From Burkholderiales bacterium (GTDB lineage: Bacteria; Pseudomonadota; Gammaproteobacteria; Burkholderiales; JACMKV01), in the NCBI GenBank assembly GCA_013695435.1, contig JACDAM010000082.1, forward strand, positions 1-44,711: a DNA stretch of 44,711 bases. The letters run 5' to 3'. Positions 1 through 2,839 of this stretch are shown piece after piece; the first letter of the stretch is position 1, and each line of letters starts with the position of its first letter. The notes beneath the pieces were generated by a model. It saw only the letters and a program-made list of their open reading frames with translations, had not been told where the DNA came from and made no database searches. A program made the position numbers and the translations under genes.

Positions 1-371
1 TGCGGGGAATCTAGATACGCGGCGCTGACCGTCACGTTGCCCGAAACCGAGGCTAGCAGTACGCTTGCATCGACTTGCAGGTCGTCGTCTCTATTCAAAG
101 TCGCGTTGACGTTGGTCGATTGCTGCGCGACGGAGTTGGTGCCAGTGTTTTGCGCCGCCTGGCTGATGCCGTCCTGATTTTTTAGGACGTCGTCGGACAT
201 GGCGTTGTTGCCGCTCTTATACGGAACATTCGCTCCGTCGAGATCTACAGTTCCGTTCTTCTCGACCGCCGCGCCCAGCAAGCTGAAATTGGTAGCAACT
301 TCGCCTTCAGCGGCCAATACGGGTGCGGAGAAACCCAGCGTGATTGCGGCAATAATCAAAGTTTTTTTCAT
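1..371 (-). CDS. Amyloid-like secreted repeat protein, copy 1 (partial, C-terminus outside window)
   Basis: Translating the minus strand from the ATG at 371 gives at least 123 residues with no stop before the window edge. It begins with a signal peptide (MKKTLIIAAITLGF, cleavage probably after VLA). One repeat follows, with the core GNNAMSDDVLKNQDGISQ and then QNTGTNSVAQQSTNV; a second repeat begins at the edge. The Asn/Gln-rich, regularly spaced pattern resembles curlin or Fap-type amyloid repeats, but I do not recognise a named family. A Shine-Dalgarno-like AAGGGAT precedes the start. It is a paralogue of the gene at 478-993 and lies 106 bp downstream of it in the same direction, so the two are probably co-transcribed. 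Function as an extracellular fibre or adhesin subunit is inference. Confidence 0.75.
   Translation of the reverse strand, partial: MKKTLIIAAITLGFSAPVLAAEGEVATNFSLLGAAVEKNGTVDLDGANVPYKSGNNAMSDDVLKNQDGISQAAQNTGTNSVAQQSTNVNATLNRDDDLQVDASVLLASVSGNVTVSAAYLDSP
99..202. repeat. 104-bp near-identical block, copy A (partner 721-824)
   Basis: This segment of the first repeat-protein gene matches 721-824 in the second gene over 104 bp. I see a single mismatch (T at 183, C at 805). Sequence on both sides is clearly more diverged, and so is the second repeat within the 478-993 gene. A recent duplication or gene conversion between the paralogues would explain this. Confidence 0.85.
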
Positions 372-477
372 GATCAAATCCCTTTTTTGTGGGTTTGCTA
401 AAGGCGCGGCAATATGCCAGCGCCTGTTCGATGCAGGGCCGTGGTCGGTTTACCCGTCACGGCCCTTTTTTGTTTTT
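372..477 (-). other. Intercistronic region with two strong hairpins
   Basis: Between the two repeat-protein genes the minus-strand transcript would carry two stems. One is GGGCCGTG pairing with CACGGCCC (about 438-465). The second is GGCGCTGGCA pairing imperfectly with TGCCGCGCC (about 400-421), just before the Shine-Dalgarno of the downstream gene. The T-run next to the first stem lies on the plus-strand side, so it is not a conventional terminator for the minus-strand genes. The stems could stabilise the upstream message or cause partial termination, giving unequal amounts of the two proteins; that is inference. Confidence 0.5.
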
Positions 478-993
478 TTATCTGCAGTTGCAGGCGATGT
501 CGGCGTCCACATTTACCGATTGCTGGGCGATCGCGTTGGTGCCTGTGTTCTGAGACAACTGGCTGATGCCGTTCTGGTTTTGCAGAACGTTATCGCTCAG
601 GGAGTTGTTACCGCTGACGATTGGGAGGTCGATGCCCGCGACGCCGAGGGTCAGGTTACCTGTAACGGCTGCGCCTAACAGGCTTACGTTCACTTGCAGG
701 TCATCGTCGTCTTTATTGAGAGTCGCGTTGACGTTGGTCGATTGCTGCGCGACGGAGTTGGTGCCAGTGTTTTGCGCCGCCTGGCTGATGCCGTCCTGAT
801 TTTTCAGGACGTCGTCGGACATGGAGTTGTTACCGCTGAAAATCGGAGCATTGATCAGAGCCGCGTCACCCGTAACGTTGCCGCTGACGGAGGCGCCCAA
901 GGCGCTCACGTTCACGGCGACTTCACCACCGTCTGCGAAAACAGGAGTCGCGAAACCGAGCGCAATCGCGAATGCCAAAACAGTCTTTTTCAT
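478..993 (-). CDS. Amyloid-like secreted repeat protein, copy 2
   Basis: 171 residues with a clear signal peptide (MKKTVLAFAIALGF, cleavage likely after VFA). The mature part is two tandem repeats of about 72 residues (roughly 26-98 and 99-171). Each has a VNVS-LGA-V-GN opening, a SGNNS(M/L)SD(D/N)VL core, NQ(D/N)GISQ, and QNTGTN--AQQS-NV. The protein ends in CNCR, so it carries two cysteines. Asn/Gln-rich periodic repeats with a Sec signal are typical of curlin- or Fap-like amyloid subunits, but no named family is recognised. The start is supported by an AAAGGGGAT ribosome site. A sigma-54 type promoter lies about 65-80 bp upstream. Together with copy 1 it probably forms a two-gene operon. 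An extracellular matrix or adhesin role is inference. Confidence 0.8.
   Translation of the reverse strand: MKKTVLAFAIALGFATPVFADGGEVAVNVSALGASVSGNVTGDAALINAPIFSGNNSMSDDVLKNQDGISQAAQNTGTNSVAQQSTNVNATLNKDDDDLQVNVSLLGAAVTGNLTLGVAGIDLPIVSGNNSLSDNVLQNQNGISQLSQNTGTNAIAQQSVNVDADIACNCR
721..824. repeat. 104-bp near-identical block, copy B (partner 99-202)
   Basis: Second copy of the block described at 99-202. It encodes the SDDVLKNQDGISQ to QQSTNVNATL part of the first repeat of the 171-residue protein. Confidence 0.85.
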
Positions 994-1055: not shown

Positions 1056-1071
1056 TGCATGGGACGTGCCA
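1056..1071 (-). promoter_or_regulatory. Sigma-54 (-24/-12) promoter for the repeat-protein genes
   Basis: The minus strand reads TGGCACGTCCCATGCA, with GG (1070-1069) and GC (1058-1057) separated by exactly ten bases. This closely matches the sigma-54 consensus TGGCACG-N4-TTGCA. Transcription would begin near 1045, giving a leader of about 50 nt before the ATG at 993. The neighbouring regulator gene at 1489-2839 is a sigma-54 activator, which fits. No enhancer site could be identified with confidence. Confidence 0.7.
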
Positions 1072-1488: not shown

Positions 1489-2839
1489 TTAGCGAACGTG
1501 TTGCCCGCTCAACCGATGCTTACCCATCAATCGATACAGGGTCACACGGGATACGCCGAGTTCTTTGGCCGCCTGCGAAATATTGTTCTGGGTATACCAG
1601 AGACTCGTTTTGATGGCATTGAGCTCGGCGATATCGCGCGCTTGATCGAGCTCCATGGTGTTGCGTGGTACGGCGCGCCGCTCAAGTCCCAGATCAGCGC
1701 GGGTGATCAAGCAGTTATCGCACATGACAATCGCTCGCTGCACCCGATTTATCAGTTCGCGAACATTGCCGGCCAGTCGTGCGCAATCAATGCTTGCAGG
1801 CCGCGATGACTGAAGCCTCTCAGATTTGCGGCGCCTCTTTCCTTGGAAAATTTGTCAAAAAAATGTTGTGCGAGAAGCAGAATGTCGTCGTCGCGTTCAC
1901 GCAAAGGGGGTGCTGTTACGTGCAGCACATTGAGTCGATAACACAAGTCTTCCCGAAAACGCCCTTCGGCTATCGCTTTTTCCAGGTTCACATGGGTTGC
2001 TGCGATTACCCGGACATCAGCCGGAATACTCTGGGTCGAACCGATGCGGCTGAACGTTTTTTCCTGAAGAAAACGTAACAGGTTAATCTGCAGTTCGAGC
2101 GGTAGGTCGCCGATTTCATCCAGGAAAATAGTTCCCCGTTCGGCGGCTTCTATTAGACCTTTCTTGGACTGATGTGCGCCCGTGAAAGCGCCTTTCTCGA
2201 ATCCGAATAATTCAGACTGGATCAGATTGGCGGGCAATGCGCCGCAATTGATCGCGATGAAGGGCTCTCTGGCCCGCTTGGAGCGTTTGTGAACCAAAAG
2301 GGCTGCCAACTCTTTTCCCGTTCCGCTTTCGCCATTGATCAGCACCGGCGCATCGACCCGCGCGATCTTTTTAATGCCGGAAAGCAGTTTGGTTATCGCG
2401 ATGCTGTTGCCAATCATCAGCGATTCTTTGATATCGTTTTGCTGAAGTGGGAAACGTTTCTTCAATTCGACTTTTCTTTCGGCATGCGCCAAGGCCAGGG
2501 AAAGCTCGCCTGGCTTGACTGGCAATAAGAAATGGTCATGAAAGCAATCAGGACAAGTTTTGCACACGTCTCAGACGTCAGGCACTTACTGTCCATCACC
2601 GCAGTCCATTCCATTAGTCCCCGGCGGAGGAGCAGGAAATCTTCAATTTCAATGCATGCTTCGTCATTGCACGCGTCGAACAATACGATTCCAGCGCCGA
2701 AGTCGTGCTGCTCAATAAGCCGACCAGCAAGCTTCAGGCTCGTGGCCATGTGTACTTCCCTGCCGGCTGCAACCAAATCGTTACCTGGATGCTCGTCCGC
2801 AATACCGAGTTTTATACAGAGCAGTTTATGAGGAGTCAT
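1489..2839 (-). pseudogene. Sigma-54-dependent activator (VpsR-like), two frameshifts
   Basis: The three parts of an NtrC-class activator lie in order but in three reading frames. 2839 to ~2550 encodes an N-terminal domain resembling VpsR-type regulators. ~2550 to ~1769 encodes the AAA+ domain with Walker A GESGTGKE, the sigma-54-contacting GAFTGA, and the second-region DEIGDLPLELQ. ~1769 to 1489 encodes a Fis-type helix-turn-helix (ISQAAKELGVSRVTLYRLM). The frame changes just before FHDHFLLPV. It changes again in the conserved WPGNVREL motif, where one base appears missing from a C/G run so that the frame reads WPAMFAN-stop. Coding content is otherwise well kept, so the lesions are either recent or sequencing errors. 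It points at the repeat-protein genes and probably controlled their sigma-54 promoter. Confidence 0.75.

Follow-up and report, generated by a model that had tools for sequence, protein, structure and literature searches.

The first 993 nucleotides of the window, i.e. the whole contig JACDAM010000082.1 (44,711 nucleotides, below C82), hold two tandem genes that probably encode amyloid-type extracellular fibre subunits of a divergent Fap-like secretion system, which appears to be decaying in this genome (2.97 Mb in 302 contigs, 98.4% complete). The two genes (fibre1 and fibre2) and their control region are listed in Table 1. Their protein products are paralogs, with 67% identity over residues 1-124, and each has a start resembling a Sec signal peptide, as read by eye from the sequence (MKKTVLAFAIALGFATPVFA-D in one gene and MKKTLIIAAITLGFSAPVLA-A in the other). 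For fibre2, an alternative start lies at position 377, and the portion inside the window carries one repeat module.

By employing an HMM of the module, whose training set left out both the genome of the window and locus L114, we obtained matches to fibre1 (E 9.2e-24, two domains) and fibre2 (E 5.2e-14). The fibre1 match is not due to chance, since the best of 1000 shuffles of the mature protein reached 5.6 bits, against 77.1 for the real sequence. An earlier note on this DNA, made from the sequence alone, had described a tandem pair of signal-peptide-bearing paralogs with Asn/Gln-rich repeats, the complete copy of which has two repeats and ends in CNCR. The reading frames, the module HMM and the shuffles confirm that this pair is real, and the proposal of a secreted, fibre-type pair of subunits is supported as well. 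The spacing of the fibre1 modules is 74 residues, where the note gave about 72. Among the 187 module-bearing reading frames that were examined, Cys-x-Cys ends were found only in fibre1 and in fibre2, the latter as CGCR on contig C274.

Table 1. Features of the fibre locus in the window
Feature	Position	Strand	Basis or remark
fibre1	478..993	minus	171 aa, signal-peptide-bearing, two modules, C-terminus CNCR; ORF and module HMM
fibre2, 5' part of the tandem paralog, cut by the contig end	1..371	minus	homology to fibre1
fibre1 module 1, residues 52-93	715..840	minus	HMM domain i-E 3.1e-13
fibre1 module 2, residues 126-166	496..618	minus	HMM domain i-E 7.3e-12
fibre2 module 1	93..215	minus	HMM domain i-E 1e-13
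C-terminal CNCR (Cys-x-Cys) of fibre1	481..492	minus	ORF
VpsR-domain/sigma-54 activator, frameshift-broken	1489..2839	minus	ORFs 2839-2462, 2567-1752 and 1743-1489
sigma-54-type -24/-12 promoter TGGCACGTCCCATGC	1057..1071	minus	78 bp upstream of the fibre1 start

Sequence searches of Pfam, NCBIfam and PDB with the fibre proteins gave no meaningful match, and viral contigs and plasmids were without a relative of the fibre protein. Out of 150 related genomes besides the window's own, one had a fibre sequence match, and a weak one. A profile search of genome contigs with the fibre alignment likewise yielded no confirmed relatives, while the C39 peptidase alignment did return them. AlphaFold2 modeled fibre1 and a four-module relative without strands and at low confidence (pLDDT 52 and 48, respectively).

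The rest of fibre2 was sought on other contigs of the assembly. The right end of C274 finishes in '...HYSGNNSLSGNVLQNQNGISQVSQNTGTNAIAQQSVNMNADIGCGCR*' and extends fibre2 on the same strand, with the reading frame kept and the repeats in register, the junction reading LDSP|HYSGNN where fibre1 has IDLPIVSGNN. Judging by this continuity, the 3' part of fibre2, with the second repeat and the CGCR end, is most likely located on C274; we infer the join, because the overlap between the two contigs is no longer than 3 bases. Beyond position 1 of the window, C274 encodes a 108-aa protein with one C-terminal module and a C39 peptidase, both oriented like the fibre genes, and a FapF-like gene in the opposite orientation, facing them. 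Export genes were thus found just beyond position 1, where the earlier note had placed them, but both the C39 and the FapF-like gene are broken. A second locus, spanning contigs C287 and C59, which were joined via an exact 127-base overlap, encodes a VpsR/sigma-54 activator, two proteins with one module each (a fibre protein and a small protein), a C39 peptidase and a protein with an RGGF motif. The latter FapE-like gene is open at the second locus and absent beside the window locus. Taken over the two loci, all kinds of parts that characterize the group of clusters described below are present (module proteins, C39, RGGF protein, FapF-like protein, VpsR/sigma-54 activator and sigma-54-type promoter), several of them broken. 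In the one other genome of the genus that was searched (87% complete), no C39 match was obtained, in a search lacking a positive control.

A sample of 300 genomes of the same order contained 42 with C39 relatives, and a scan of named genomes with the C39 alignment gave 80 further relatives. The cluster ranges over Beta-, Gamma- and Alphaproteobacteria, Geobacteraceae and one Nitrospira, and usually has the order fibre protein, small module protein, C39 peptidase, RGGF protein and FapF-like pore, with a VpsR/sigma-54 activator nearby. Among 55 loci with enough flanking sequence, a FapF-like gene was present in 53, an RGGF gene in 45, the small module protein in 42, the regulator in 39 and the longer module protein in 38, with all five parts in 25. 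The catalytic Cys, His and Asp of the peptidase are invariant in the 11 relatives aligned. Most fibre proteins of the relatives consist of a long Gly/Asn-rich body with a single module at the C-terminus. Fibres with more than one module are rare and were seen in this genome (two modules each) and, with four each, in genomes G325 and G470 and in Acidithiobacillus ferriphilus. Within the same cluster, fibre proteins with modules are also paired in tandem at L112:3004-4623, L128, L173 and L198, i.e. the two-subunit arrangement recurs. We did not find the cluster under any other name in the open-access literature.

As to regulation, the activator in the window matches the Pfam families VpsR and Sigma54_activat, its tblastn pieces falling in different frames. 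The promoter has one mismatch to TGGCAC-N5-TTGC, and the fibre gene of the second locus also has an upstream sigma-54 -24/-12 site. Allowing up to one mismatch, such a site lies ahead of the fibre gene at 31 out of 77 loci, versus 1.5% of random 250-bp stretches drawn from the same loci. The rpoN gene is intact in this genome.

The earlier note could match the proteins to no named family, a statement that is not supported, as the module is a distant relative of the FapB/FapC repeats and has Fap-type D-E-F neighbors. When aligned with the repeat profile of true Fap operons (L098-L111 and L119), the module profile gave an hhalign P of 1.5e-6 (probability 90) in a single pairwise comparison over about 40 columns, which shared Asn/Gly-rich composition could help. 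The common pattern is roughly IxxxAFxxAxGIxxVxQxxGxxN. An HMM of the Fap repeat did not match the fibre proteins of the window; it did match the module fibre of A. ferriphilus (L132) at 4.4e-10, bridging both groups. Intact relatives matched the NCBIfam models C39_FapD and FapF at 1e-38 to 1e-44 (1e-44 for FapF), yet far below the curated cut-offs; for C39_FapD, the cut-off is 330 bits, with the relatives below it at about 1e-40. The RGGF protein aligned with FapE at P 2.6e-6 over an ELxxLRG-x motif, and it follows the C39 gene as FapE does. In a C39 tree of 77 sequences, a quick search with many weak forks, the true Fap peptidases and several other C39s of the order formed a branch (support 97) that excluded the peptidases of the cluster. 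By these sequence comparisons, we regard the cluster as a sister variant of Fap rather than a canonical member, because the C39s branch apart and the FapD and FapF matches lie below the cut-offs, despite the kinship of the repeats and the D-E-F gene order.

Some genomes carry more than one such locus. Two FapF-like loci each were found in G311 and G560, with one Fap and one module-type cluster in G311. Billgrantia and Aidingimonas (Halomonadaceae; L167:12354-14114 and L174:12131-13877) have two related systems side by side: the C39 gene of the Fap-like cluster is separated by about 5 kb from a true FapB/FapC pair, which the Fap-repeat HMM matches at E about 1e-30 to 1e-38.

The gene content, the synteny, the distant homology of module, D, E and F and the sigma-54-type promoter are observed. 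For the cleavage site, the secretion route and the amyloid stacking we take Fap as the template (PMC5557850; PMC12392863). In intact relatives, the VpsR-type activator together with sigma-54 would switch on the fibre gene, and the subunits would cross the inner membrane by the Sec route. A periplasmic, FapD-like C39 cysteine peptidase may then process its partners; in the FapE-like protein, the probable cleavage site is the conserved double glycine of RGG|F. The putative FapF-like pore, with its coiled coil and beta-barrel, would export the unfolded subunits. Outside the cell, the Asn/Gln/Gly modules are predicted to stack in cross-beta layers, like the repeats of FapC.

In this genome, both loci have frameshifts in the C39 gene and in the regulator gene, the tblastn pieces lying in different frames. 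The C39 gene on C274 is split and has a 45-bp duplication; at L005:2511-2700, this direct duplication adjoins a deletion that fuses the end of the C39 gene to the FapF-like stub. At the second locus, the C39 gene (L006:2-322 and L043:3749-4191) is interrupted where a run of T, a candidate phase-variable tract, has slipped by one base, and the two overlapping contigs agree on it. The sole FapF-like gene keeps its first 146 residues, followed by a stop, and has lost its barrel, and no second intact FapF-like gene or barrel was found elsewhere in the 302-contig assembly. Among named relatives, which were picked by match quality and are thereby biased, long reading frames were found for 80 of 80 C39 genes, 71 of 71 FapF-like genes and 47 of 49 regulators. 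Another truncated copy was observed on a 136-kb plasmid of Vibrio sp. SCSIO 43009 (L120:10144-10592), where the C39 frame of a Fap-like cluster stops after 72 residues; this is possibly another decaying cluster.

The fibre genes themselves are still open, and the dN/dS of the paralogs is about 0.2-0.3; the subunits therefore appear to have been constrained until recently, the machinery being lost first. The first modules of fibre1 and fibre2 are near-identical at the DNA level (dS 0.12, versus 2.1 elsewhere), which suggests recent gene conversion between them.

The same open genes could also belong to a system that still functions, with the frameshifts being assembly or sequencing errors and export relying on a full FapF-like gene in unassembled sequence or on another outer-membrane pore. 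We consider this unlikely. It is favored by the open frames of the fibre genes and of both small module genes, by the dN/dS of the paralogs, by the open FapE-like gene of the second locus and by the fragmentation of the assembly, in which a missing pore gene may possibly have escaped. Against it stand several independent lesions in C39 and regulator genes of two loci, among them the tandem duplication and the barrel-removing deletion. A general sequencing fault is an unlikely cause of the frameshifts, since ten housekeeping genes of the window were checked and all have their full length. Furthermore, the exact 127-base overlap between C59 and C287 fits a short-read assembly at k=127, and homopolymer errors are rare in short-read assemblies. 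The genome probably makes no fibre today, unless another pore serves the system.

Two readings without a Fap-type fibre were also weighed. The proteins might be small secreted substrates of the C39 peptidase, in the manner of double-glycine bacteriocin or signal-peptide systems, given that the peptidase belongs to a family trimming double-glycine leaders and that a neighboring protein has a conserved RGGF motif. This is very improbable: no C39 ABC transporter accompanies the peptidase, which in the relatives carries a signal-like N-terminus of its own and is encoded together with the FapF-like pore, and the modules align with Fap repeats and, in relatives, are found at the C-terminus of long Gly/Asn-rich proteins. 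Even less credible, to the point of being negligible, is a curli-type (CsgA/CsgB) fibre, which the short Asn/Gln-rich repeats and the tandem pair would recall; no curlin match was obtained in Pfam or NCBIfam and the neighbors are of the Fap type. A CsgG-like gene to the left of position 1, which the earlier note had proposed to look for, was not found there: the only CsgG-like match of the genome lies elsewhere, beside a XerC-like gene and without a curlin neighbor. Curli was rejected on these neighborhood and profile results.

Beyond the decaying Fap-like system of this genome, we lean towards a wider interpretation, with somewhat less assurance. According to this, the cluster would represent a sister lineage of Fap that is distinct from it and controlled by sigma-54/VpsR, and whose fibre proteins usually have a long Gly/Asn-rich body with one module at the end. 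The lineage would be widespread both within and outside Proteobacteria, would escape the current family models and would build a matrix fibre for many environmental bacteria; in the present genome, it would be in the course of being lost, pore and processing first and subunits last. If so, amyloid secretion of the Fap type extends beyond the operons named Fap: soil and freshwater bacteria, as well as oxidizers of methane or ammonia, would have a second lineage with a separate regulator and with Gly-rich subunits of a single module, and the matrix proteins of these bacteria are still annotated as hypothetical. The FapD and FapF profiles are known to match many proteins outside Fap (PMC3792158), and the cluster would explain many of these matches. 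For such a lineage, the window would be a minor and degraded example; it looks like what is left of a widespread and little-described biofilm-fibre system.

Among known systems, curli shares with the window the short, secreted Asn/Gln repeat proteins, but differs in having no sequence match and another secretion apparatus. In the putative Fil pilus system of Acinetobacter (filABCDEF), the models of the C39 protein FilB and the FapF-like FilC match proteins of the relatives, but more weakly than those of Fap do, in a comparison that covered the peptidase and the pore. The A. ferriphilus locus has a comparable set of genes, for a module fibre, a small module protein, a C39 peptidase, an RGGF protein, a FapF-like protein and a VpsR regulator, and the peptidase groups with those of this system; the locus differs in being intact and in having four modules and no Cys-x-Cys end. 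We infer it to be the Acidithiobacillus multi-repeat system that has been counted as Fap (Dueholm 2013, PMC3792158) and the proteins of which were seen in vesicles of F. caldus (PMC10853474). Fap itself likewise has subunits with Asn/Gln/Gly repeats, often encoded by two genes, and C39, FapE-like and FapF-like proteins in D-E-F order, while its FapA chaperone is often absent (PMC3792158). Apart from the separate C39 branch and the low model scores, the differences lie in the repeats, which in Fap are of 39 residues and usually three per subunit (PMC12392863), as opposed to two modules here and usually one, C-terminal, in the relatives; in the cysteine pair, Cys-x-x-Cys near the C-terminus of FapC (PMC5135000) versus Cys-x-Cys here; and in the extra small one-module protein and VpsR/sigma-54 regulator of the present cluster.
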